A stretch of DNA of 64,000 nt, taken from Leuconostoc litchii. Its GTDB lineage: Bacteria; Bacillota; Bacilli; Lactobacillales; Lactobacillaceae. This document shows positions 17,611 to 63,899 of this stretch, piece by piece; positions within the stretch are counted from its first letter, which is position 1, and every line of letters starts with the position of its first letter. Location: NCBI RefSeq assembly GCF_008107645.1, contig NZ_SDGY01000001.1, positions 325,955-389,954 on the forward strand, read 5' to 3'. A program made the translations under genes and the position numbers. The notes under the pieces are model-generated. The model was given only the letters and a program-made list of their open reading frames with translations. It made no database searches and had not been told where the DNA came from.

Positions 17611-17630
17611 GATTATCAATAAAATAAAAC

Positions 17631-17742
17631 CTTTAATCAGGTCCAGAGAGACCTGCAAGGATTTAGATACTTTAGGTAAAGTGTATACTTTTGCCCTCAT
17701 TTTCTAGAACCAAGCGGTCAACTCTGTCCGCTTGGTTTTTTG
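17631..17742 (+). promoter_or_regulatory. PyrR-binding transcription attenuator
   Basis: The anti-antiterminator hairpin CAGGTC (17638-17643) and GACCTG (17650-17655) carries the PyrR recognition sequence CCAGAGAG. The terminator pairs AACCAAGCGG (17708-17717) with CCGCTTGGTT (17728-17737), then TTTT. In Bacillus, UMP-bound PyrR stabilises the first hairpin and so favours termination. No pyrR gene is present in this window. Confidence 0.92.
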
Positions 17743-17758
17743 TATAAAGAAGGGTAAT

Positions 17759-51178: not shown

Positions 51179-52057
51179 ATGATAACCCTAGAAAATGAAC
51201 ATCTCATCGTAAAAATTAATCCAGAAGGTGCTGAACTAACAAGTGTTTGGCATAAAGAAGCTGAAATAGAATATATTTGGACAGGCGATCCTAAATATTG
51301 GGGTCGTCATGCTTCTAATTTGTTCCCTATTGTTGGACGTCTACGTGGCGATCAGTTTAGAGTGGCAGGCGAAACATATTATATGAATCAGCATGGTTTT
51401 GCACGTAACATGCTATTTGATGTTGTGGAACAAAGTGAAAATAAAGCCGTTTTTCGAATTGTCGACACGGAATCAACACATCGTGTGTATCCATTTAAAT
51501 TTCAATTTGATATTAGTTATGAATTAGAGGATGACGATACACTGCATATTGCATATATCGTTCATAATCCAGATAAAGAAGAAACATTATTCTTCAGTGT
51601 TGGTGGGCATCCTGCTTTTAATTTGCCATTAGACGGTGGAAAATTCTCAGATTATTACTTATCAATTGAGCCAGAAAAGGTATATGATCGTGTACGTTTA
51701 GTTGGGCCATACTCCAATCCTAACCATCCGACACCATTTAATGCTAGCATTCCATTACGTTTACGCCAAGAAGATTATCATGATGATGCGATTATTTTGA
51801 AGCTTGATCGACAAAAAACATCATTTTTATTGGCTCGTTTGGCTAACCAACATGGATTGCGTATGACATTAGATAATGCACAATTTATTGGTGTTTGGAC
51901 ACCGGCAGGTAAGCAGGCACCATTTATAGCTCTTGAACCATGGTGGGGATTGGCTGACACAGTAGACGCAACAGGCAACTTTAAAGAAAAGTTTGGTTCG
52001 AATGTTTTGGCTGCTGGCGATACATTCAATGGCACGTATAGTTTGCGATTCTTTTAA
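51179..52057 (+). CDS. Aldose 1-epimerase family protein
   Basis: 292 residues. NEHLIVKINPEGAELTSVWH, YWGRHASNLFPIVGRLRG and FFSVGGHPAFNLPL (His motif) match the galactose mutarotase-like superfamily, YeaD/LacX-type. It interconverts sugar anomers. Substrate unknown. No SD is seen upstream. Confidence 0.88.
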   Translation: MITLENEHLIVKINPEGAELTSVWHKEAEIEYIWTGDPKYWGRHASNLFPIVGRLRGDQFRVAGETYYMNQHGFARNMLFDVVEQSENKAVFRIVDTESTHRVYPFKFQFDISYELEDDDTLHIAYIVHNPDKEETLFFSVGGHPAFNLPLDGGKFSDYYLSIEPEKVYDRVRLVGPYSNPNHPTPFNASIPLRLRQEDYHDDAIILKLDRQKTSFLLARLANQHGLRMTLDNAQFIGVWTPAGKQAPFIALEPWWGLADTVDATGNFKEKFGSNVLAAGDTFNGTYSLRFF

Positions 52058-52062
52058 TCGAT

Positions 52063-52097
52063 AAAAAACATTGATATTTTAATACCAATGTTTTTTT
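52063..52097 (+). terminator. Rho-independent terminator
   Basis: AAAAAACATTG (52063-52073) with CAATGTTTTTT (52086-52096), then T. It closes the epimerase gene. Confidence 0.88.
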
Positions 52098-52140
52098 ATT
52101 AGAATTATGAATTTTATGTTGCTTTTTCTATCATAATGTT

Positions 52141-52470
52141 TTAAACTGGGTTTAACATAAAAACGTCATAAACCGTTGAGACGGAGATCAAACCATGTGT
52201 GCACGTACAGGGAGTCCTTGTTACTGGAAGTAGGGCCGAACGCAACATGGCAAATGGACCGTTGAGGGTTGGTTGAACGAGAGAAATCTTCAGTACTGCC
52301 AAACGTGAGATCTACGTAAGTGATCAGGTTATTGTTAGATAACTGTTGAGACGCGTTTTAATTCGAGTGGTTTTTTTTAGCTACCATTTGACTTGGACGA
52401 AATCAGGTGGCACCGCGGGAAACCGTCCTGAAATTTTTGCAAAAGCAAATTTTTCAGGACGGTTTTTTAT
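52141..52470 (+). promoter_or_regulatory. T-box leader of the trp operon, specifier TGG (Trp)
   Basis: The T-box core TGGCACCGCGG lies at 52408-52418. Stem I spans about 52171-52272: CCATGT (52193-52198) pairs with ACATGG (52245-52250), and the specifier loop holds TGG (52255-52257) followed by A. The terminator pairs 52421-52440 with 52445-52464 around an AAAA loop, then TTTT. Uncharged tRNA-Trp should relieve termination upstream of trpB. Confidence 0.93.
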
Positions 52471-52498
52471 TTGCTTAAAAAAGAAAAGGGGAAAAAGA

Positions 52499-53686
52499 AT
52501 GACAAAAAAAGGATACTATGGTGAGTACGGCGGACAATTTGTTCCAGAATTGTTAATGCCGGCAATTAATGAGGTTACAGAAGCATTTGATAAATATAAA
52601 GATGATTTAACCTTTAAAAGGGAATTGAAAGATTTATTTGATAATTATGCAAATCGACCATCAATGTTATATTATGCGAAAAATATGTCTAAAGATTTGG
52701 GCGGAGCGCAAATTTATTTAAAAAGAGAAGATTTGAATCATACAGGGGCACATAAAATTAACAATGTATTAGGTCAGGCTTTAATTGCTAAACGCATGGG
52801 TAAAACGCGATTAATTGCTGAAACAGGTGCTGGACAACATGGTGTGGCAACAGCCACAGCTGCCGCTTTGTTTGGTATGGAAGCTGAAATATTTATGGGA
52901 AAGGAAGATACCGAACGGCAAGCGTTAAATGTTTATCGTATGGAATTACTTGGTGCCAAGGTGCACGCAGTTACAACAGGAACTCAAGTTCTAAAAGATG
53001 CTGTTAATGCTACATTTCAAGATTGGACTAAAAGAATTGATGATACATTTTATGTACTTGGTTCAGCGGTTGGACCATATCCATTTCCAGAAATGGTTAA
53101 ATATTTCCAATCAATTATTAGTGAAGAAGCCAGAAGCCAATTCTTAGAGATGACAGGAAGATTGCCAGATGCAGTTCTCGCCGCAGTTGGAGGAGGATCT
53201 AATGCGATTGGTGCATTTGCTAAATTTATTGACGATTCAGAAGTTGAATTAATAGGTATTGAGGCTGCCGGTAAAGGTGTCAATACCCAGCAAACAGCAG
53301 CGACAATGGCACTTGGAACAAAAGGGATTTTCCATGGTATGAAATCGCAATTCTTACAGTCTACTGATGGACAAATTGATCCTGTTTATAGTATTTCTGC
53401 AGGATTAGATTACCCTGGTATTGGACCGGAACACGTTTATTTAAAAGAGATTAACCGTGCAAAATATGTACCAATTACAGATGATGAAGCAGTAGCTGCA
53501 TTTGAATATATTGCAAAAACTGAAGGTATTGTCGCTGCAATTGAGAGTTCTCATGCTGTAGCATATGCTATGAAAATCGCACCAAAAATGAGAAAAGATC
53601 AGCAAATTATGGTTAATTTAAGTGGACGTGGTGATAAAGATGTTGCTGCTATTGCTCGATACAAAGGAGTAAATATTCATGAGTAA
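52499..53686 (+). CDS. trpB: Tryptophan synthase beta chain
   Basis: 395 residues. The ATG at 52499 follows AGAAAAGGGGAAAAAG. The PLP lysine lies in [14 protein letters not shown], and [12 protein letters not shown] is the phosphate-binding loop. It joins indole and serine. It leads the operon, directly behind the Trp T-box. In most Firmicutes trpE leads. Confidence 0.98.
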
Positions 53687-54704
53687 TATTCAAAAAGCAT
53701 TGTCAAAATTAATCAAATTACAGGATTTGAGTGCTGAGAATGCGTTTCAGGTAATGGACGACATTATGGACGGAAAAGTTTCTGATCCAGAAATTTCTGC
53801 CTATTTAATGGGATTAGCGGTTAAGAAAGAATCGGTTTCCGAAATTGTTGGTTCTGCAAGAGCTATGATTGCACATGCAACAAAGATTGAGCCAGCTTTC
53901 GATGCAATAGACATTGTTGGTACTGGTGGTGATCTGTCGGGCACCTTTAATATTTCAACAACAGCAAGTTTTATAGTTGCTGCAGCTGGGGTTCCAGTTG
54001 TTAAACATGGTAACCGTGCAGCTAGCTCTAAATCAGGCACAGCAGATGCACTAGAAGCACTTGAGGTTATGATTGATTTGAAACCTGAGCAAGCTACTAG
54101 TGTTTTATCTCAAGCTGGTCAAACGTTTTTATTTGCACGTTCGTATCATCCAGCTATGAAGTACGTGGGTTCAATTCGAAAGACCTTAGGAGTTCGAACG
54201 ATATTTAATATTTTAGGACCGCTAACAAATCCTACACGACCTCAAACAATGTTGGTCGGGGTATATTCCAAAGAACTATTAGTGCCGTTAGCAAAAGTAT
54301 TTTCCGAGCTAGGGGTCAGAAAAGCGATATTAGTTCATGGTCAAGACGGATTGGATGAAGTAACGTTAACGACGAAAACAGATTTAGTCGTACTAACTGA
54401 TGGTCAAATAAAAGAGAAAATTTTTGACCCAACAGATTATGGTTTTGATTTTGTCTCTATTCAAACATTACGTGGTGGTACGCCAGTTGAAAATGCGAAA
54501 ATAACACATAATATTTTGTCAGGAGTTATCACGGGACCGATGAAAAATATTGTGATTTTAAATGCTGCAATGGCATTATTGATAGCTGAAAAATCAGTAA
54601 CAATTCGTGATGCTATCAAATTGGCTGAACATATATTGGATAGTGGGAAAGCACTAAAGCAATTAGAATTATTACAACAAGTGACTAAGGAAGTGACACC
54701 ATGA
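53679..54704 (+). CDS. trpD: Anthranilate phosphoribosyltransferase
   Basis: 341 residues, overlapping trpB by 8 bases. [18 protein letters not shown] is the PRPP site (usual GTGGDG). [20 protein letters not shown] and GPLTNPTRP also match. It transfers PRPP ribose to anthranilate. Confidence 0.96.
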
Positions 54705-55489
54705 TACTAGATGATTTGGTCAATGCTACACAACAAAATATGTTGAAAAGACGAGAGAAAAAATCACTTAATAGCTTGAAAAAAGAAGTTAACAATATAC
54801 CCAGTTCAAATACTTTTTCTTTTGAAAAAAATTTGAATCAGTCTAATATTTCTATAATTGCCGAAATTAAACAAGCCTCACCCTCAAAGGGACAAATTGT
54901 GTCTCCTGAAAAGTTCAATTATCAGCAAATTGCTGATGATTACAAAAATGCTGGTGTTGATGCAATCAGTGTTTTGACAGAGGAAAGTTACTTTAAAGGT
55001 TCGCTTGGTATTTTGACAGATGTTGCTGCTAGAAATGATATCCCAACACTTCGTAAAGATTTTATAATTGATCCGTATATGATTTATGAAGCTAAGGTGG
55101 CAGGGGCACAAATTATTTTGTTAATTGTCGCAATTCTAACTGATGATAAACTAGGCGAGTACTTATCTTTGGCGGATAAATTAGGACTTTCAGTCATTGT
55201 TGAGGCACATAACGATGAGGAAATTAAACGAGCAGTGAGTGCAAGGGCACGAATTATTGGTGTTAATAATCGAAATTTGAAAAATTTTACTGTAGATTTT
55301 AATAATACGATTCGTTTACGCAAGCTAGTGCCTGCTGATATACTCTTCATTTCGGAATCAGGAATAAAAAATCGGACAGATGTAGAGACCTTGGAACAGA
55401 ATGGTGTGAATGGTATTTTAGTTGGTGAAACTTTCATGCGAGCTACAGATAAAATAGCAAAAATTAATCAATTAAGAGGTCATGAATGA
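54701..55489 (+). CDS. trpC: Indole-3-glycerol phosphate synthase
   Basis: 262 residues with ATGA overlaps on both sides. [40 protein letters not shown] and [10 protein letters not shown] are family motifs. It is a TIM barrel that closes the indole ring. Confidence 0.97.
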
Positions 55490-56061
55490 CACGAATTAAG
55501 TTGTGTGGCAATTTTCATTTACAAGATGTTGATTACTTAAATGAAGTTAAACCAGATTTAGCTGGTATTATTTTGGTTCCAAATCGGCGTCGGTCGGTAA
55601 CTTTCGAATTAGCAAAAGAAATGCGGGATAGGTTGAATATAGACATTCCCTTAGTGGGCGTATTTTCTAACCAAAAAACCAGTGAAATTCTAGCTTACAA
55701 AAATATTATTCAAGTAGCTCAATTACATGGTCAAGAAAATGAGCAACAGGTTTATGAAATTCAAAATTCTGGCTTGCCGGTTATTAAGGTTATGAAGCCA
55801 AACGGTCAACATCAAACATGTGCTATAAAACGTATGATTGACGCAGGCGCTGGCACAGGGAAAACGTTTGATTGGCAAGGTTTTAAATCTAATGAACCCT
55901 TAGATTTTCTTGCTGGTGGTTTAACAACACAGAATTTACAGAGAGCAATTTCTCTGTTGAATCCTAAAACGGTTGATATTAGTTCAGGATCAGAAGTTAA
56001 TGGTATAAAAAACATAGAAAAGATGCGAGAGTTAGTGCGTATAGCAAGGAGTAATAAATGA
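55486..56061 (+). CDS. trpF: Phosphoribosylanthranilate isomerase
   Basis: 191 residues. The N-terminal KLCGN carries the catalytic Cys, GVFSNQKTSEI follows, and FLAGGLTTQNLQ and VDISSGSEVNGIKN complete the barrel. It is shorter than many TrpF but all motifs are present. Overlaps trpA by ATGA. Confidence 0.95.
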   Translation: MTRIKLCGNFHLQDVDYLNEVKPDLAGIILVPNRRRSVTFELAKEMRDRLNIDIPLVGVFSNQKTSEILAYKNIIQVAQLHGQENEQQVYEIQNSGLPVIKVMKPNGQHQTCAIKRMIDAGAGTGKTFDWQGFKSNEPLDFLAGGLTTQNLQRAISLLNPKTVDISSGSEVNGIKNIEKMRELVRIARSNK

Positions 56062-56834
56062 ATGAAATTACACAAGCATTAAAAAATAAAAATGCCTTTA
56101 TTGGATTTGCTGTTGCCGGATATCCTAATTTTGAAAAAAGCGCAAAATACATAGTTGATATGGCAAATGCTGGTGCGGATTTAATTGAAATTGGTATAGC
56201 TTTCAGTGATCCTAGTGCAGATGGACCAACAATAATGAATGCTGATCAAAAAGTACTGGAAAATGGCTCAAAAACGGAGGATGTGTTTAGATTAATTACT
56301 GAGATTCGTAAGGACACCAATGTGCCTTTAGTATTTCTGACTTACACCAATCCAGTTTTTAAATACGGCTATGAAAAATTTTTGAGTAAAATGAAATCTT
56401 TGGATGTTCAGGGAATCATTATGCCAGATATGCCTTTAGAAGAACAAGAAGCATTTATAAATATTGCGCAACAATACGGGCGTGCATTTATTCAACTAGT
56501 GACATTACAATCCGGCAATCGATTGCCTAAAATTGTGTCACATGCCTCCGGATTTATTTATGTAGTTAGTTCTTTAGGCATAACTGGATCACGACACAAA
56601 TTATCTAATGAAGCAAATGAAATTGTCACTAGAATAAAAGAATTGACAGATATTCCAGTTGCGGTTGGATTTGGTATTAATACTTATGATCAAGCTAAAT
56701 TATTCTCCTCTGCAGATGCGATTATAGTTGGCTCTGCACTTGTAAAAATAATTGAAGAACATCCTGATGATGCTACGACATATCTCACTGAATTTATTCA
56801 AAAAATGAAAGGAGCACGCAATGCGACAAATTAA
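56058..56834 (+). CDS. trpA: Tryptophan synthase alpha chain
   Basis: 258 residues. ADLIEIGIAFSDPSADGP holds the catalytic Glu (near residue 44), and Asp in MPDMPLEE. GFGINTYDQAKLFSSADAII is the phosphate-binding region. It is separated from trpB by three genes here. Overlaps trpE by 14 bases. Confidence 0.97.
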   Translation: MNEITQALKNKNAFIGFAVAGYPNFEKSAKYIVDMANAGADLIEIGIAFSDPSADGPTIMNADQKVLENGSKTEDVFRLITEIRKDTNVPLVFLTYTNPVFKYGYEKFLSKMKSLDVQGIIMPDMPLEEQEAFINIAQQYGRAFIQLVTLQSGNRLPKIVSHASGFIYVVSSLGITGSRHKLSNEANEIVTRIKELTDIPVAVGFGINTYDQAKLFSSADAIIVGSALVKIIEEHPDDATTYLTEFIQKMKGARNATN

Positions 56835-58185
56835 AACGATTGATGCGGACACGTTAACCGTTATTAGTGCCTATTTTCGATTACGCGGAGAACGTAGCTT
56901 TCTTTTAGAGTCAGTACCGACTGATAGTGAAAAATCTCGCTATTCAATTATTGCGCTCGATCCGGTACATGAGTTTAGCACAGTTGGCCATTCGGTAACA
57001 ATTGATGGACAAACTACTGAATGCAAAGATCCATTAATGTCTTTACAAGATTTGGTAGTTACAGAAGATGAATGTTTAGAGGAATTGCCCTTTCAAGGTG
57101 GTGCTATTGGTTACGTAGGCTTCGATACGATAGCTGTGTATGAAAAATTAAAAAATCAGCCTGAAAATGATCTGGGTATGCCAGACAGTCATCTGTTTTT
57201 GTATGAAACGTTTGTTATTTTTGATCATCAGCAGGAAAAAATACAAATCGTCGTTGATAATGTTTATTCTGGGCGTGAAAACTTGGATGAAATCGTTACT
57301 ATCCTTGAAAATAAGTTAAAACTACCGGTTGCTGATGAACTTGTATCTGTACAACTACACGATTTAAAACCAAAATCAAATGTGACACCAGATCAGTTCA
57401 AAACGATGGTCAACCGCACAAAAAAACTAATTCAAGATGGTGATATGTTTCAAATGGTGCCATCTCAAAGATTTAGTTTTACTTTTGAAGATAAGCCGTT
57501 TGATTTTTATAGGCAATTACGGCGAACTAATCCATCGCCTTACATGTACTACATGGATTATGGTGAGTATCAAATAATTGGTTCGTCTCCTGAAAGTTTG
57601 GTCACTGTTCGTGGTAAAACCGTAACGACTAACCCTATTGCTGGCACTAGAAAAAGAGGACAAACAGCTAAAGAGGACATTGCAGTTGCCAAAGAATTGA
57701 AAAATAATGAAAAAGAACTTGCTGAACATCGTATGTTAGTTGATTTAGGTCGTAATGATCTTGGAAAAATTTCTGAATATGGTAGTGTTAAAGTTACTAC
57801 ACTGCTGGAAATTCAAAAATATCGTTACATTATGCATTTGGTCTCTGAAGTTAGTGGTCGATTACGTGAACACACGCCTGCGATTGAGGCTCTAAAAGCT
57901 ACTTTACCGGCTGGAACAGTTAGTGGTGCGCCAAAATTACGGGCATTACAACGTATTTATGAAATGGAATCAGTAAAGCGGGGTGTTTATGCAGGGGCAA
58001 TTGGTTACTTATCTCGTGACAACCAAATGGATTTTGCAATTGCTATTCGAACAATGATTGTCAAAAATAAAAAAGGATATGTACAAGCTGGAGCGGGTAT
58101 CGTGTATGATTCTACAGCAGAAAATGAGTATCAAGAAACATTGAATAAAGCCAAAGCATTGCTAAAATTAGGAGGAGACAGATGA
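56821..58185 (+). CDS. trpE: Anthranilate synthase component I
   Basis: 454 residues. The LLES feedback motif is present in SFLLESVPTDSEKSRYS. The chorismate-binding core has SSPESLVTVRG, NPIAGTRKRG and GGAIGYVGFD. It is usually inhibited by tryptophan. Overlaps trpG by 4 bases. Confidence 0.97.
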   Translation: MRQIKTIDADTLTVISAYFRLRGERSFLLESVPTDSEKSRYSIIALDPVHEFSTVGHSVTIDGQTTECKDPLMSLQDLVVTEDECLEELPFQGGAIGYVGFDTIAVYEKLKNQPENDLGMPDSHLFLYETFVIFDHQQEKIQIVVDNVYSGRENLDEIVTILENKLKLPVADELVSVQLHDLKPKSNVTPDQFKTMVNRTKKLIQDGDMFQMVPSQRFSFTFEDKPFDFYRQLRRTNPSPYMYYMDYGEYQIIGSSPESLVTVRGKTVTTNPIAGTRKRGQTAKEDIAVAKELKNNEKELAEHRMLVDLGRNDLGKISEYGSVKVTTLLEIQKYRYIMHLVSEVSGRLREHTPAIEALKATLPAGTVSGAPKLRALQRIYEMESVKRGVYAGAIGYLSRDNQMDFAIAIRTMIVKNKKGYVQAGAGIVYDSTAENEYQETLNKAKALLKLGGDR

Positions 58186-58763
58186 TTTTATTAGTGGATA
58201 ATTATGATTCTTTTACCTATAATTTAGCACAAATTATTGGCACCAAAACGTCATTAGTTGTCTTGAGAAATGATGATGAACGACTTTATACAATTGCTAA
58301 CCGTGCAAATGGTATTATTTTTTCGCCAGGTCCTGGAAAACCTAATCAAGCTGGTGAGATGGAAAATATGATTCGACATTTTGCTTATACGAAACCAATG
58401 TTAGGTATTTGTCTAGGGCATCAGGCTATCGGAGAAGTTTTTGGTGGACAAGTTCAGCATGCGTCTGTGGTTCGACATGGTAAGGTTTCAAAAATGGTTA
58501 ATGTTTGTTCTTCTCCATTACTGAGTGAAGATATGGTGCAAATTATGCGTTATCATTCACTGATTCTGGATAAACAAAAGTTTCCTAAAAACTTTGAAGT
58601 AACAGGAATTTCTGCAGATGACAACGAAGTGATGGCTATGCAACATGAGTCATTGCCTATCTATGGGTTTCAGTTTCACCCAGAATCAATTGGTACGCCA
58701 ATGGGAACAGCAATGATTGAAAAATTCATTGCTCTAACCGAGTGTTTAGCTATAAATAATTAA
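58182..58763 (+). CDS. trpG: Anthranilate synthase component II (glutamine amidotransferase)
   Basis: 193 residues. MILLVDNYDSFTYNL and the nucleophile Cys in GICLGHQAIGE are typical, with His/Glu in FQFHPESIGTPMG. It supplies ammonia to TrpE. It may also serve PabB. It ends the trp operon. Confidence 0.96.
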   Translation: MILLVDNYDSFTYNLAQIIGTKTSLVVLRNDDERLYTIANRANGIIFSPGPGKPNQAGEMENMIRHFAYTKPMLGICLGHQAIGEVFGGQVQHASVVRHGKVSKMVNVCSSPLLSEDMVQIMRYHSLILDKQKFPKNFEVTGISADDNEVMAMQHESLPIYGFQFHPESIGTPMGTAMIEKFIALTECLAINN

Positions 58764-58804
58764 TGAGTGTTTAATGATGTAATATAGTTTATTTTAATAA
58801 ACTG

Positions 58805-58833
58805 TTGACATTTATAATAAATAATTGTATAGT
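58805..58833 (+). promoter_or_regulatory. Promoter of the aromatic (tkt-aro) operon
   Basis: Consensus -35 TTGACA (58805-58810), 17 bp, -10 TATAGT (58828-58833), start about 58840. It lies 20 bases before the leader peptide start codon. Confidence 0.85.
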
Positions 58834-58839
58834 TGATTA

Positions 58840-59090
58840 CATCAAATAAGAATGAGAAAAATTATGAACAACAAAGTCTTGAAAAATAATAGTTATTATT
58901 ACTTCTGGTTTATGTAGAACCGTCGCTAAGTGCGTCGGTTACGACGCACTTAGCGACCAGAAGCTTTTCAAGGTTGAGTTACTAAGTGTCAATATTAAAC
59001 ACTTAGTAGCTTTTTATTTTTTCGGAATGAAATTTCCTGTTAAATCGTACTAAGTGTTTACTCACTTAGTACGATTTTTATTTAAGGAGA
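58840..59090 (+). promoter_or_regulatory. Aromatic amino acid attenuator with three hairpins of interchangeable arms
   Basis: H1 is a perfect 16-bp stem GTCGCTAAGTGCGTCG (58922-58937) with its complement 58942-58957, with no U-run. H2 pairs TACTAAGTGT (58980-58989) with ACACTTAGTA (58999-59008), then GCTTTTTATTTTTT. H3 pairs AAATCGTACTAAGTG (59042-59056) with CACTTAGTACGATTT (59063-59077), then TT. Every hairpin has CTAAGTG on its 5' arm and CACTTAG on its 3' arm, so the arms can swap partners. The Tyr-Phe-Trp codon segment CTTCTGGT (58902-58909) can pair with ACCAGAAG (58956-58963) around H1. H2 and H3 are terminator-like. A mechanism follows in the findings. Confidence 0.85.
58864..58917 (+). 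CDS. Leader peptide rich in aromatic residues
   Basis: A 17-codon ORF: MNNKVLKNNSYYYFWFM then TAG. Three Tyr, Phe, Trp and Phe lie consecutively (codons 11-16, bases 58894-58911), directly upstream of the attenuator hairpins. This is how classical leader peptides such as those of trp and phe operons sense aminoacyl-tRNA supply. The SD is weak (AATGAGAAAA before ATG). Translation is inferred. Confidence 0.82.
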   Translation: MNNKVLKNNSYYYFWFM

Positions 59091-59095
59091 ATCTC

Positions 59096-61021
59096 ATGAT
59101 AACGACAACACCACTAGCAACAAAAGCAATTCAATCGTTGCGACTGTTATCCAATCAGATAATCAGTCATGCTGGATCTGGTCATCCAGGAATCGCATTA
59201 GGTGCGGCACCGATTTTGTACGAATTATACGCTAATCAGCTTAATGTCGATCCTAAAAATCCTCATGAACCTAATCGAGACCGTTTTGTATTATCCGCCG
59301 GACATGGTGCCGCATTACTTTATGCAACATTATATGCTGCAGGTTTTAATTTAACTTCTAAGGATTTATCAGAATTTCGACAACCTCATTCAAAAACACC
59401 AGGACATCCAGAAGTTGGTGTGACGCCCGGTGTTGAAGCCACAACCGGCCCTCTAGGTCAAGGATTGGGTATGGCTGTGGGCATGGCTATGGCTGAAGAA
59501 AAATTACATCAACAATTTCCAACAGTTATACATCATTTTACTTACGCTTTGGTCGGTGATGGTGATTTGATGGAAGGTGTGAGTCATGAAGTAGCTTCTC
59601 TAGCAGGGCAGCAACGTCTCAGTAAGCTAATTGTGCTGTATGATGATAATGCTGTTAGCCTTGATGGTGCAAAAGAACGTTCTGATACTTCTGATAATCT
59701 GGCACGATTTGCGAGTTATGGTTGGGATATACGTAAGGTTGAAAATGGCAATAATTTAGAGGCGATTCATGATGCTATTGAAAATGCCAAGTTATCTCCT
59801 GAACCAACATTAATTGCTGTAAAAAGCATTATTGGTGACTTTGGGCCATTTGCAGGAACAAATAAAGCTCATGGAACGCCATTAACTGACCAACAGTTAG
59901 TAGATTTATCAGAAATGTTGGCAGTTAAAGTTACGAACTTTGAGCTACCTAGTGATGTGTTGGAAGATATCCGCATTAAGATAATGGCACGATTGGCTAA
60001 TCGTGTGCAGCCAACGGAAGAGGAGTTAGGAAACTATTTTGAGTTTACAAGGAAAAAAGATTTTTCGATACCACAATTGACGACTGAAATTAAGTCACAA
60101 GCAGGTCGAAAAATTTCAAAGTATGTATTGCAAAACTTTGCACAACAATTACCGAATTTATGGGGTGGTTCAGCGGATTTGGTAGCATCAACTAATGCAG
60201 AAATTGTTCAGTCACCTTTGTTCAACAATGATGATCGTTCAGGTAGAAACATTGCCTTTGGAGTCCGTGAGTTTGGTATGGGATCCGTCATGAACGGTAT
60301 TGCCTTACATGGTGGAACAACAATATTTGGCGCTACATTTTTAGCTTTTTCAGACTATATGAAAGCAGCTATTCGTTTAAGTGCATTACAACACGTACCG
60401 GTCATTTATGTTTTTACGCACGATAGTGTTACTGTTGGAGAAGATGGACCAACGCATCAGCCAGTTGAGCAATTAATGGGATTGCGAATGATACCTGGTA
60501 TTGATGTCTTACGTCCGGGAACTGCAGAAGAAATAGCTCATGCATGGCATCAAGCGCTTACGTCGATTGATCGACCAACCGTTTTGATATTAAGCCGAGG
60601 TGCAATTGGTCCTCAGGGAAATGATGCGCAAGCGGAATTAGCGATACAAAGGGGTGCAGTGCAATTAAGACAGAATAATGATGCTAAGATTAACTTAATT
60701 GCAACAGGGTCAGAAGTACAATTGGCCCAAAAAGTGAGTGAATTGTTATCCGTACCGTCAAATATTATATCTATTCCTAATTTGTCGCGATTTAGTGCAT
60801 TAGAAAAAAGTGAGAGGCATAAAATCATTCCTCAAGAAACAGCCAAAAATGTAATAATAGAGGCAGGAACAACATTAGGTTGGCAAGGTATCGCTGGTGA
60901 TGAAGGGATGATTCTGGGTATTGATGAATTTGGGATGAGCGCAGTGGCAGCAAATATATTTGATGAAATTGGGTTTACTGCAGAAAGTATAGTTCATCGC
61001 ATTACACGGGAGCTATTATGA
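59096..61021 (+). CDS. tkt: Transketolase
   Basis: 641 residues, ATG 59096 behind AAGGAGA. HAGSGHPGIALGAAPILYEL and LVGDGDLMEGVSHE bind TPP and metal, and HDSVTVGEDGPTHQPVEQL is the transketolase C-terminal signature. It makes erythrose 4-phosphate (or reverses). As head of the aro operon, behind the aromatic leader, it probably supplies erythrose 4-phosphate for DAHP. Heterofermentative lactic bacteria use phosphoketolase for the main flux, so a dedicated transketolase fits. Confidence 0.95.
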   Translation: MITTTPLATKAIQSLRLLSNQIISHAGSGHPGIALGAAPILYELYANQLNVDPKNPHEPNRDRFVLSAGHGAALLYATLYAAGFNLTSKDLSEFRQPHSKTPGHPEVGVTPGVEATTGPLGQGLGMAVGMAMAEEKLHQQFPTVIHHFTYALVGDGDLMEGVSHEVASLAGQQRLSKLIVLYDDNAVSLDGAKERSDTSDNLARFASYGWDIRKVENGNNLEAIHDAIENAKLSPEPTLIAVKSIIGDFGPFAGTNKAHGTPLTDQQLVDLSEMLAVKVTNFELPSDVLEDIRIKIMARLANRVQPTEEELGNYFEFTRKKDFSIPQLTTEIKSQAGRKISKYVLQNFAQQLPNLWGGSADLVASTNAEIVQSPLFNNDDRSGRNIAFGVREFGMGSVMNGIALHGGTTIFGATFLAFSDYMKAAIRLSALQHVPVIYVFTHDSVTVGEDGPTHQPVEQLMGLRMIPGIDVLRPGTAEEIAHAWHQALTSIDRPTVLILSRGAIGPQGNDAQAELAIQRGAVQLRQNNDAKINLIATGSEVQLAQKVSELLSVPSNIISIPNLSRFSALEKSERHKIIPQETAKNVIIEAGTTLGWQGIAGDEGMILGIDEFGMSAVAANIFDEIGFTAESIVHRITRELL

Positions 61022-61842
61022 CATTATATGGACTAATAGCTCATCCAGCTGGACACTCACGATCACCGCTGATGCAAAATAAAATGATTGATAAATATAA
61101 TATTGATGCTCATTATCATGCATTTGATGTTTTACCTGAACAATTAGAACATGCTGTTAAAGGATTGAGGGCATTACATGTAGGTGGCTTTAATGTATCT
61201 ACTCCGTTCAAAAACAATATCATTAAATATCTGGATGAAATATCTCCAATAGCTGAACAACTGCAAGCTGTAAATACTGTTAAGAATGTTCAAGGTCGTC
61301 TTATTGGCACTAATACTGATGGAGATGGCTTTTGGCAAAGTATTAATTCACGACAACCGAAAGAAACGGTCGTTATATTTGGTACCGGTGGTGCAGCAAG
61401 AGCTGTCATTGCAACGGCTAAGCAATACGGTGTTAGAAAATTAATTGTATTTAATCGTGTTCATAGCGATTGGTGGGCACGGCAGCAAGAAATTAGCCGA
61501 TTAACTAATGGTGGGGGATATCTTGAAGATTTAGCCAACAACCATGAGTTGACTGAAGCGTTGAAACAGGCAGACATGTTAATCAACGCTACAACTGTGG
61601 GCATGAATGATTCTCGAACACTTCTTACGGATTATCAAGTATCATTATTACCACAGCATGCATTAGTTGTTGATATGATTTACCGTAATCAACAAACAAC
61701 AATGCTGAAATCTGCCAATCAACGTGGATTATTAACTTTAAACGGTTTACCTATGTTAGTAAATCAAGGCGCATTGAGCTTTGAATATTGGTTTAACAAG
61801 TTAGCTGATAGAAAACTAATGATGAAAGAAATTGAGGAATAA
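61018..61842 (+). CDS. aroE: Shikimate dehydrogenase
   Basis: 274 residues, ATGA overlap with tkt. NVSTPFKNNIIKYLD carries the catalytic Lys and GTNTDGDGFW the Asp. The NADP fold starts VVIFGTGGAARAVIATA. It reduces dehydroshikimate. Confidence 0.96.
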   Translation: MTLYGLIAHPAGHSRSPLMQNKMIDKYNIDAHYHAFDVLPEQLEHAVKGLRALHVGGFNVSTPFKNNIIKYLDEISPIAEQLQAVNTVKNVQGRLIGTNTDGDGFWQSINSRQPKETVVIFGTGGAARAVIATAKQYGVRKLIVFNRVHSDWWARQQEISRLTNGGGYLEDLANNHELTEALKQADMLINATTVGMNDSRTLLTDYQVSLLPQHALVVDMIYRNQQTTMLKSANQRGLLTLNGLPMLVNQGALSFEYWFNKLADRKLMMKEIEE

Positions 61843-61845
61843 AAC

Positions 61846-62838
61846 ATGATTATTATCGCAAAAACAAATAAAGATGCAGAACAAATTGCAGCAAAATTAA
61901 ATACAAACAATCCTATTAAACCAGTGTTTGTTCATGACAACCGTGTAGCGCTAGCTGGTGTAAAAAGTTTGCCAGAAAACGAATTGAGAAATATTTCACA
62001 AATGATTGTTGATGTAATCACAAACCATCATTCGGCTATTAAATCATCACGTGAATTCCATCCAGAGGATACAATTATTACAACTAAACATAGCACAATT
62101 GGTGGTGGTAATTTTGTTTTCATGGCTGGCCCTGACTCCATTGAATCTCCTGATCATGTTAAAGAGATGGGTGAAGATGTTAAAATGGCTGGTGCAACGA
62201 TTTTGCGTGGAGGGGCTTTCAAACCGCGTACATCCCCATACTCGTTCCAAGGAAATGGTGAAGATGGATTAAAGGCTCATCGTGCGGCGGCTGACGCATT
62301 ACAAATGGATATGGTAACAGAAATCTTAGATACACGCGATGTTGACTTGGTGGACTCATACACAGATATTTTCCAAGTTGGTACGCGTAACATGCAAAAT
62401 TTTGCATTACTTAAGGCACTTGGCAAAAAAAATAAGCCCGTTGTGTTGAAGCGAGGAATGTCAGCTACAATTGATGACTTACTGAATGCAGCAGAGTATA
62501 TTACTGCTGGTGGTAATGACCAAATTATTTTGATGGAACGTGGTATTCGCACATACGACAATAAGTACACACGTAACACACTTGATGTATCAGCTATTCC
62601 AGTATTACAGTCTCTAACTCATTATCCAGTGGTTGCGGATGCTTCACATGCGGCGGGTGTGTCTAAGTTTGTTGAACCACTGGCTTTAGCAGCGATTGCT
62701 GCTGGCGCACAAGGTTTAATGACTGAAATACATGATGATCCGGCACATGCGTTTGTTGATGGTGCACAGGCATTGACACCTGAGCAATTTAAACAACTAG
62801 CAGAGAAAGTAAATAAGGTTCGTGAGGCAATAAAATGA
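61846..62838 (+). CDS. aroF: DAHP synthase, class I-beta type
   Basis: 330 residues. An N-terminal ferredoxin-like (FL) domain of about 70 residues is followed by the barrel with AGPDSIESPDHV, ILRGGAFKPRTSPYSFQG, QVGTRNMQNF, KRGMSATIDDLLN and ERGIRTYDNKYTRNTLD. H268, E294 and D305 sit at the metal-ligand positions, but D97 replaces the ligand Cys (Cys102 in T. maritima). This is the first step of the shikimate pathway, erythrose 4-phosphate plus PEP. The FL domain usually confers feedback inhibition by Tyr or Phe. The symbol follows the enzyme role, not a proven isoform. Confidence 0.93.
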   Translation: MIIIAKTNKDAEQIAAKLNTNNPIKPVFVHDNRVALAGVKSLPENELRNISQMIVDVITNHHSAIKSSREFHPEDTIITTKHSTIGGGNFVFMAGPDSIESPDHVKEMGEDVKMAGATILRGGAFKPRTSPYSFQGNGEDGLKAHRAAADALQMDMVTEILDTRDVDLVDSYTDIFQVGTRNMQNFALLKALGKKNKPVVLKRGMSATIDDLLNAAEYITAGGNDQIILMERGIRTYDNKYTRNTLDVSAIPVLQSLTHYPVVADASHAAGVSKFVEPLALAAIAAGAQGLMTEIHDDPAHAFVDGAQALTPEQFKQLAEKVNKVREAIK

Positions 62839-63899
62839 GCACAATTACAGTTGATTTGGCGACAAAAAAATATGATGTGAAGATTGACAACACCTTACAC
62901 ACTCGTATAGGTCAAGAAATTTCTGCAGTTTGGTCAACACGTAAAATTGTGTTATTAACCGACAATAATGTTGGGCCTTTGTATTTAGAAGACACATCAA
63001 GACAATTGCGTGATAAAGGGTTTGATGTACTGGAACTGGTAGTTCCAGCGGGTGAACAATCTAAATCATTATCAGTTGCAGGTGACTTGATTGGTAAAAT
63101 GGCCAGCGCTGGATTTACTCGTGGTGATGGGCTTATTGCCTTGGGGGGAGGTGTAATTGGTGATTTGGGTGGTGTGGTTGCATCTCTATATATGAGAGGT
63201 ATTGCCTTTATTCAGATTGCGACGTCTCTAACTGCTCAAGTTGATTCATCAGTTGGTGGTAAAACTGCTGTGAATTTGGGTGATACCAAGAACATTGCTG
63301 GTTCCTTTTATCAACCAGATTTAGATCTAGTTGATGTAACATATTTGGATACTTTGACTGATCGCGACTTAGTCGAAGGATATGCAGAAGTTGTAAAAAC
63401 ATCGGCTTTGTCTGATCAAAACTTTTTTGAATTTACCGGTCAAATTAAATCGATTTCAGATATACGTGAACACGCCCAGGAACTCTCACAAAGAGCCATT
63501 GCGTACAAAGCAAGAGTAGTTATGGCAGATGAAAAAGAAGCTGGCGAACGACAGTTTTTGAATTTTGGTCATACTTTCGGTCACGCAATTGAACTATTGG
63601 CTCACGGTGAGTTGCGGCATGGCGAGGCTGTTGCAATTGGGATGGTTGCCATTAGTAGCCGTTTTGAACAAAATGGTATAATGCCTAAAGGGATGACTGA
63701 TGAATTATTAAGTCGATTAGAAGCTGTTGGCTTACCAACACAATCCGAATTTATAGGTACGACGCATTTTTTTGATCGCTTGATTAATGATAAAAAAAAT
63801 CATGGGGGCGTTTTGAATTTAGTTGCGTTAGAGAGCATTGGAAATCCAGTTATTGTGAAGAAAAAAATTGCCGATATGCCGGCATTTATGGAGAATTAA
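62835..63899 (+). CDS. aroB: 3-dehydroquinate synthase
   Basis: 354 residues, ATGA overlap. [19 protein letters not shown] binds [20 protein letters not shown] and [12 protein letters not shown] contain the metal and catalytic residues. It cyclises DAHP to 3-dehydroquinate. Confidence 0.97.

Follow-up and report, generated by a model that had tools for sequence, protein, structure and literature searches.

Transcription of tkt and the aro genes of Leuconostoc litchii is very probably controlled by ribosome-mediated attenuation in the leader in front of them, which would respond to the charging of tRNAs for Tyr, Phe and Trp and so regulate the common aromatic pathway; a hairpin right after the stop codon of the leader ORF (Hx) would be the trigger. 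The sequence analyzed here, ‘the window’, is a stretch of 64,000 nucleotides. The 332 bp between trpG, which ends at 58763, and tkt contain in 5′ to 3′ order a promoter, a 17-codon ORF, hairpin H1 and two terminator hairpins, H2 and H3, whose 5′ and 3′ arms are called A1 to A3 and B1 to B3 (Table 1). In comparisons between genomes, the leader is conserved, helices P1, Hx and H1 covary, and B1:A2 and B2:A3 are complementary in a lineage-specific manner.

An earlier note on this DNA had described the 17-codon ORF ending in YYYFWFM, a perfect 16-bp H1, terminators H2 and H3, and the motif CTAAGTG or CACTTAG in all six arms. The observation is real, as all these elements are in the sequence, including one copy of the motif in each arm and a U tract after each terminator hairpin. 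Its proposal of a ribosome-mediated attenuator controlling tkt-aro has gained support from the conservation of the leader, P1 covariation, cross-pairing of the arms and the aromatic genes downstream. What the note had missed is hairpin Hx and the long-range helix P0.

Table 1 Features of the tkt leader and its surroundings, in positions of the window
Feature	Position	Strand	Basis or remark
trp T-box	52167-52433	+	RF00230
Promoter TTGACA-17-TATAGT	58805-58833	+	11 of 12 consensus matches
Leader ORF, MNNKVLKNNSYYYFWFM and stop	58864-58917	+	sequence; 17 codons
P0 5′ strand CTTGAAAA	58878-58885	+	inside leader codons; 8 bp, perfect, with TTTTCAAG at 58965-58972
Tyr codons of leader	58894-58902	+	sequence
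P1 5′ strand CTTCTGG	58902-58908	+	over Tyr-Phe-Trp codons; pairs with CCAGAAG at 58957-58963
Phe codon of leader	58903-58905	+	sequence
Trp codon of leader	58906-58908	+	sequence
Last Phe codon of leader	58909-58911	+	sequence
Stop codon of leader	58915-58917	+	sequence
Hx, AACCG-U-CGC / GCG-U-CGGUU	58918-58940	+	−12.2 kcal/mol
H1 (A1 58922-58937, B1 58942-58957)	58922-58957	+	16 bp, perfect
3′ strands of P1 and P0; B1:A2 antiterminator loop	58957-58972	+	pairing
H2 terminator (A2 58976-58989, B2 58999-59012, U tract to 59022)	58976-59022	+	−16.2 kcal/mol
H3 terminator (A3 59042-59056, B3 59063-59077, U tract)	59042-59083	+	−19.8 kcal/mol
tkt, transketolase, first operon gene	59096-61021	+	TIGR00232, E = 1.5e-199, 664.6 bits (slightly under cut-off of 682.25)
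aroE, shikimate dehydrogenase	61018-61842	+	TIGR00507 over cut-off
DAHP synthase	61846-62838	+	TIGR01361 over cut-off
aroB, 3-dehydroquinate synthase	62835-63899	+	TIGR01357 over cut-off

The promoter, called consensus in the earlier note, is present, though the site alone provides no evidence, because three promoter-like sites were found in the 601 bases scanned and 3.1 are expected by chance. Similar TTGACA..TATA motifs are seen by eye ahead of the leader in upstream sequences of other Leuconostoc. Ahead of the first gene, H2 and H3 are intrinsic terminators; a simple terminator scan listed H3 and not H2. The leader RNA folds at −87 kcal/mol vs a shuffled mean of −43.7 (z = −9.7). CTAAGTG/CACTTAG has nine copies in the 64-kb window, where 6.1 are expected by chance, and six of the nine lie in these 144 bases; this clustering in the arms, with the comparative data, rules out a chance origin of the repeated heptamer. 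Between H2 and H3, at 59022-59041, is a small hairpin whose sequence varies in relatives by eye (GGAA..UUCC, CAG..CUG, CCGCCG..CGGCGG) and which would sit in the B2:A3 loop.

Of 19 Leuconostoc genomes, 18 have a tkt match, and the leader lies upstream of it in all 17 loci holding upstream sequence, in a sample drawn by tkt and not by the leader. Covariance model R1 finds the element in 18 of the 19 genomes; the sole genome without it, G003, has a tkt that starts at a contig edge. Two Convivina species and one Lactobacillaceae MAG also carry the leader, and in these the arms of H1 change together at some positions, as judged by eye. In G015, where no tkt match was found, the leader is directly before aroE, as it is in Convivina (L026, L032, L052). 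Alignment A1 was made without L018 (G004), whose leader resembles that of L009, and alignment A2 used 15 of the 19 available leaders. An Erysipelotrichaceae locus (L031) was rejected as a chance match to the peptide pattern, since it has none of the hairpins and a different gene.

The peptide ends in Y(Y/F)YFWFM at all 17 Leuconostoc tkt loci with upstream sequence; the window has NNSYYYFWFM, and the end reads YFYFWFM in L007, YFYFWFI in G015 and YYYFWFM otherwise. The earlier note had suggested comparing leader codons and arms among relatives, and the aromatic run is indeed kept at these loci and in further relatives. A short ORF carrying codons for the amino acids that it would sense, putatively translated, is thus shared by the 17 loci and the relatives. 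An alternative in-frame ATG at 58852 would add four codons, but it is not conserved in alignment A1.

Outside the close relatives, R1 made 19 weak matches. Matches that weak need a leader ORF to count, because reverse-strand matches of R1 on its own loci are equally strong (E of 5.6e-4 to 0.02). An aromatic leader ORF was present in 15 of the 19; L076, L077, L079 and L085, which have terminators only, were rejected. Model R2, built from 14 of the 15 and containing no Leuconostoc, Convivina or MAG sequence, matched 97 of 397 Lactobacillaceae genomes in 19 of 40 genera (E up to 0.05) and recovered the Leuconostoc leaders. The 94 of these 97 genomes that were read (all except G129, G174 and G245) all have an aromatic leader ORF. 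Across the order, R2 matched 13 of 395 Lactobacillales genomes, one of them outside Lactobacillaceae, and R3, built from 35 diverse elements, matched 36 of the 395 (E up to 0.02), of which 17 are outside Lactobacillaceae. Among these 17, all 12 that were read have an aromatic leader, including L125, which was in the model. Second elements were also seen: diverged ones in two genomes (L163, L164), one before an aroE-like gene in G163 besides that before DAHP synthase, and one before an MFS-like gene in G025 besides that before tkt. In L165 (G181, C7), the leader peptide is kept while Hx and H1 are unrecognizable, and this element is possibly decaying or rewired.

Among 83 elements, 73 follow the Trp-leader rule, and the other 10 are, by eye, aromatic without Trp or have a longer tail. 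The first gene behind the 73 is a tkt homolog in 30, DAHP synthase in 21, aroE in 19 and aroB in 1, the remaining two being aroC (L102) and an aminotransferase (L086). Other elements precede aminotransferases, or an MFS transporter (L136, with L137 and L164 alike by eye), or substrate-binding proteins of TrpX-type ABC systems, which match NF041285 below cut-off in L167 and L175 and are assigned by eye in the others. Shorter elements with fewer hairpins stand before aminotransferases in L086 and L141-L143, their leaders ending in YYFWFFQN or FWFFHKHL. Before substrate-binding proteins, L125, L167, L170, L171, L175 and L177 have leaders without Trp codons, ending in YYYFSFFR or YFYSYFR. These Trp-less codon runs suggest Tyr/Phe rather than Trp control, and if true, such endings would mark the TrpX-type transporters as Tyr/Phe, not Trp, systems. 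DAHP synthase scores over cut-off in 78 Lactobacillaceae genomes, 43 with an R2 match and 35 without; therefore, the element is one of several solutions. R2 matches also occur in genomes without DAHP synthase over cut-off (e.g., G074, G135 and G158).

Covariation supports both the long-range pairing and the proposed trigger. CTTCTGGT (58902-58909) is complementary to ACCAGAAG (58956-58963), so that the pairing between the Phe-Trp codons and a segment after H1, noticed earlier, is borne out as P1, which covaries. For 14 cores from outside Leuconostoc, collected with a model that has P1 and H1 but no Hx, RNAalifold returned unprompted P1 and the hairpin right after the stop codon, with double changes at 10 of 22 pairs. 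The first paired base of Hx is at most 4 nt from the first stop-codon base in 67 of 71 elements from 15 genera (L086 and L165 left out), and all 7 pairs of P1 can form in 66 of 71.

On 35 aligned cores, 97.5% of P1 cells are paired, and all 7 of its pairs show double changes; for Hx the figures are 79.6% and 7 of 10 pairs, and for H1 79.6% and 9 of 12. Most of these cores had been selected with R2, a model that contains P1 and Hx and not H1, so the counts lean to P1 and Hx. RNAalifold on the 35 cores returned P1 only; Hx and H1 were set by hand from L103 and then counted. Sliding by 1-3 columns lowers the paired fraction of P1 with Hx from 87.2% to 36-46%, and that of H1 from 79.6% to 27-49%. 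Hx and H1, which have bases in common, are thus each supported as helices. Hx is built from the 5′ arm of H1, and because its 3′ strand consists of the last bases of A1 and the H1 loop, Hx and H1 are mutually exclusive. Judged by eye, Convivina has a different complementary pair, ACCTCA / TGAGGT, in place of P0, and in L020 P0 is altered. Two other pairings were rejected by eye: a small hairpin GGUUU..GAACC over the stop codon has only 3 bp in some relatives, and for the freed CCAGAAGCUUUUC segment pairing directly with H2, nothing conserved was seen.

With leaders aligned on Trp and L165 left out, positions −4 to 0 are aromatic in 68, 57, 70, 72 and 72 of 72, position +1 in 53, and each of the six positions 5′ of the run in at most 1; the leader rule, which requires Trp, an aromatic residue at −1 and three of five aromatic, fixes −1 and 0 and biases −2 to −4, leaving +1 and the sharp upstream edge unbiased. 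The middle codons of P1 vary (TAT, TAC, TTC, TTT), and the pairing partner varies with them, a pattern that fits selection on aromatic codons plus pairing.

Conservation is also found before the aromatic run, with Asn at −6 in 59 of 72 leaders and Arg or Ser at −5 in 60 of 72. These residues would suit a nascent-peptide arrest of the known TnaC type, in which the YYYFWFM chain, on binding a free aromatic amino acid, would halt its own ribosome at the stop codon. Against this, Phe/Tyr/Ser swaps are frequent among the leaders, some of which lack Trp altogether; the nucleotide conservation of the codons is explained by P1, and arrest at the stop would favor H1 and termination. We regard peptide arrest as highly improbable.

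Cross-pairing of the arms was examined in the 50 of 71 elements in which a hairpin-plus-U rule, blind to other pairings, located both terminators. The 21 elements without H2 by this rule were left out here and in mask folding (L106 is without H2), as were L086 and L165. The B1:A2 duplex has −13.3 kcal/mol with its own partner, −9.7 with a partner from another genus and −6.3 with a shuffled one; for B2:A3 the values are −14.7, −9.8 and −6.7. When each of 13 genera was represented by one element, 1 of 20,000 permutations was as good, for either pair alike. Own partners are better than cross-genus ones in 10 of 13 genera for B1:A2 (not g3, g20 and g24) and in 13 of 13 for B2:A3. For B1:A3, a pair outside the proposal, there is no such excess (own −7.3, cross-genus −8.1 kcal/mol). 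In several genera, B1:A2 has a C-A mismatch at a constant place (CUGUG-C-GACC : GGUC-A-CACAG; CACUUAG-C-GAC : GUC-A-CUAAGUG), and in L002/L003, B2 is CACCTAG by eye, a perfect match to A3 (CTAGGTG) and a mismatch to A2.

Thus, the register shift of the earlier note, H1 3′ arm with H2 5′ arm and H2 3′ arm with H3 5′ arm, holds as a lineage-specific complementarity, and the comparison of arms that it had called for finds their sequences differing between genera while cross-pairing persists. By these comparisons, a mutually exclusive antiterminator is conserved by covariation. The heptamer common to three hairpins could also be read as a repeated terminator or a protein binding site, with an incidental leader ORF and no translation-dependent switch. 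Against this, the arms differ between genera while their cross-pairing persists, and the aromatic ORF is equally placed in 83 elements (73 by rule, 10 by eye), though most of these elements were found with models that include the codon stretch. A protein site or bare terminator repeat is hardly credible.

We infer ribosome stalling, an order of folding and a response to amino acids as follows. Upon starvation, a ribosome stalled on the aromatic codons would cover the 5′ strands of P0 and P1, not the bases past the stop codon. A1 would then fold on itself into Hx once it is made, leaving B1 without its partner; B1 would pair with A2 and then B2 with A3, so that both terminators would be undone in a cascade and the polymerase would read through into tkt-aro. 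In the fed state, a ribosome at the stop codon would cover the 5′ strand of Hx and melt it, the rest of A1 would pair with B1 as H1, and H2 and H3 would form and terminate. When the leader is untranslated or the ribosome is released, P0 and P1 would tie the leader codons to the bases that follow B1, enclosing H1, and transcription would terminate. The earlier note had left the order of states unclear, since a ribosome at the stop codon would also reach the 5′ arm of H1. That gap would be filled by Hx, which had gone unnoticed.

This order was modeled by equilibrium folding of transcripts truncated behind A2, in which no base under the ribosome (A-site codon −18 to +12) was allowed to pair. B1 prefers A2 over A1 in 23 of 50 elements with a Tyr stall, 19 of 50 with a Trp stall, 12 of 50 with no ribosome and 3 of 50 with a ribosome at the stop. 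When Hx pairs are penalized, the preference is left in 1 of 50. When A2 is swapped in from another genus, switching occurs in 114 of 400 cases (28%) vs 46% with the own A2. Among 16 Leuconostoc leaders, 7 switch under the Tyr stall and none under a stall at Phe16, the last Phe. In these in silico foldings, ribosome position shifts the structure in the expected direction in 23 of 50 elements; at equilibrium, the window species is not among them.

An attenuator could be conceived without Hx, in which nothing but the shared heptamers counts and B1 is freed by a ribosome on the 5′ arm of H1, giving read-through on completed translation and not on stalling. A ribosome at the stop (58915) would reach about 58927, covering the first bases of A1, and L010 leans that way under the stop mask, with B1 at 0.43 with A2 vs 0.39 with A1. 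Biosynthetic genes, however, would then be controlled with the wrong sign, B1 prefers A2 to A1 under the stop mask in no more than 3 of the 50 elements, and the covariation of Hx would be unexplained. A switch of this kind is very unlikely, and we keep Hx as the probable trigger.

In energy terms, few cases are less favorable than the window species, and this is a main weakness of the model. Under the Tyr stall, H1 is favored over Hx with B1:A2 by 8.0 kcal/mol in the window, 8.3 in L008 and 5.9 in L010; in all three, H1 has no bulge. In the window, B1 stays with A1 under every mask at equilibrium, because its H1 lacks the bulge present in most relatives. Since H1 is unusually strong, a switch in the window species would have to be kinetic according to the model. 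Direct-path barriers in the window, as approximate estimates, are 8.7 kcal/mol for Hx to H1, 2.6 for Hx to B1:A2 and 10.9 for B1:A2 to H1. The barrier from Hx to H1 is above that from Hx to B1:A2; therefore, a kinetic switch on the transcription time scale is possible.

The same energetics raise an alternative, that the attenuator is built as proposed but unresponsive in the window species, being nearly a constitutive terminator because H1 became a perfect 16-bp hairpin there. B1 remaining with A1 under every mask agrees with it; the order of the barriers speaks against it, as does the fact that leader, arms and promoter are intact in the window species. Such a loss of response is unlikely. 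For the element at large, we lean, with some reserve, toward an undescribed, order-wide class of leader-peptide attenuators that forms an aromatic amino acid regulon of biosynthesis, aminotransferase and transport genes in Lactobacillales, in which the stop-codon hairpin reports the ribosome and one decision cancels two terminators.

To judge from this element, many Lactobacillales may have their common aromatic pathway wired to translation instead of a T-box, with one leader reading three amino acids. The codon content of a leader would predict what the downstream transporter or enzyme responds to. Because the arms are rewritten between genera while the pairing logic is kept, the elements offer a natural data set for co-transcriptional folding. 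The interest lies in the breadth of the element and in its three-amino-acid input in an order dominated by T-boxes.

T-boxes are the standard amino acid sensors of Lactobacillales, and aromatic regulons in low-GC Gram-positives were reportedly described by Panina et al. in 2003. Like the T-box leader (RF00230), the present element would provide amino-acid-responsive control, and would do so in the same gene neighborhood. The trp genes 5′ of the tkt leader are under a T-box, as the earlier note had said (E = 5.6e-13). This T-box is clear by E value, yet was missed in the scan at the Rfam gathering score (65.8 bits vs 93). A search of 52000-59200 with RF00230 (E up to 5) matched the trp leader alone, not the tkt leader. 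At the gathering score, no Rfam 15 family, the leu-phe leader included if Rfam has one, falls on the element in the window and 13 loci, and the sole match inside the element at E up to 5, mir-276 (E = 2.6), was taken as chance. Elsewhere in the window, a PyrR binding site at 17626-17743 (+) matches RF00515 with 60.2 bits, over the gathering score.

The His-leader attenuators of Firmicutes are a parallel case of control by leader peptides in a phylum where T-boxes dominate. In the parts consulted, these are reported for three lineages including the B. cereus group and Erysipelotrichales, with Lactobacillales his genes described as T-box controlled; unlike the present element, they respond to histidine only (PMC9413887). 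The uORFC-13-1 motif, upstream of aroF (DAHP synthase), has a candidate uORF with at least one Phe codon and a terminator. In the section on it, it differs from the present element in being confined to Acholeplasma and environmental DNA and in having a U run and one further stem, and Tyr or Trp codons are unmentioned there (PMC8632094). In the main text of a regulon paper on lactic acid bacteria, ‘attenuat-’, ‘leader peptide’, ‘T-box’ and ‘aromatic’ are absent (PMC3616900), as are ‘Leuconostoc’ and ‘leader peptide’ from the consulted text of a T-box survey (PMC2494555). No prior description of the element was found in the open-access literature. The mechanism is most likely ribosome-mediated attenuation in a variant form, with Hx as the trigger.

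The closest relatives in logic are two classical attenuators. The his operon attenuator of enterobacteria consists of six segments, A-F, in a chain of mutually exclusive hairpins, the first segment overlapping the regulatory codons. The tkt leader likewise has three tandem hairpins with shifted alternative pairs, and blocking the first hairpin would shift every partner by one. Unlike in the his type, A1 starts at 58922, 5 nt past the last base of the stop codon, and the codons pair with the 3′ strand of P1; a separate trigger hairpin, Hx, is made from A1 at the stop codon; two terminators stand in series, and three amino acids would be read. In the trp and pheA attenuators, leader codons pair with a downstream segment, and a terminator competes with an antiterminator. 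P1 and the competing arms resemble this, whereas here an extra hairpin lies between the P1 strands, Tyr, Phe and Trp would be read together, and the targets are the genes of the common pathway and, in relatives, transporters and aminotransferases.
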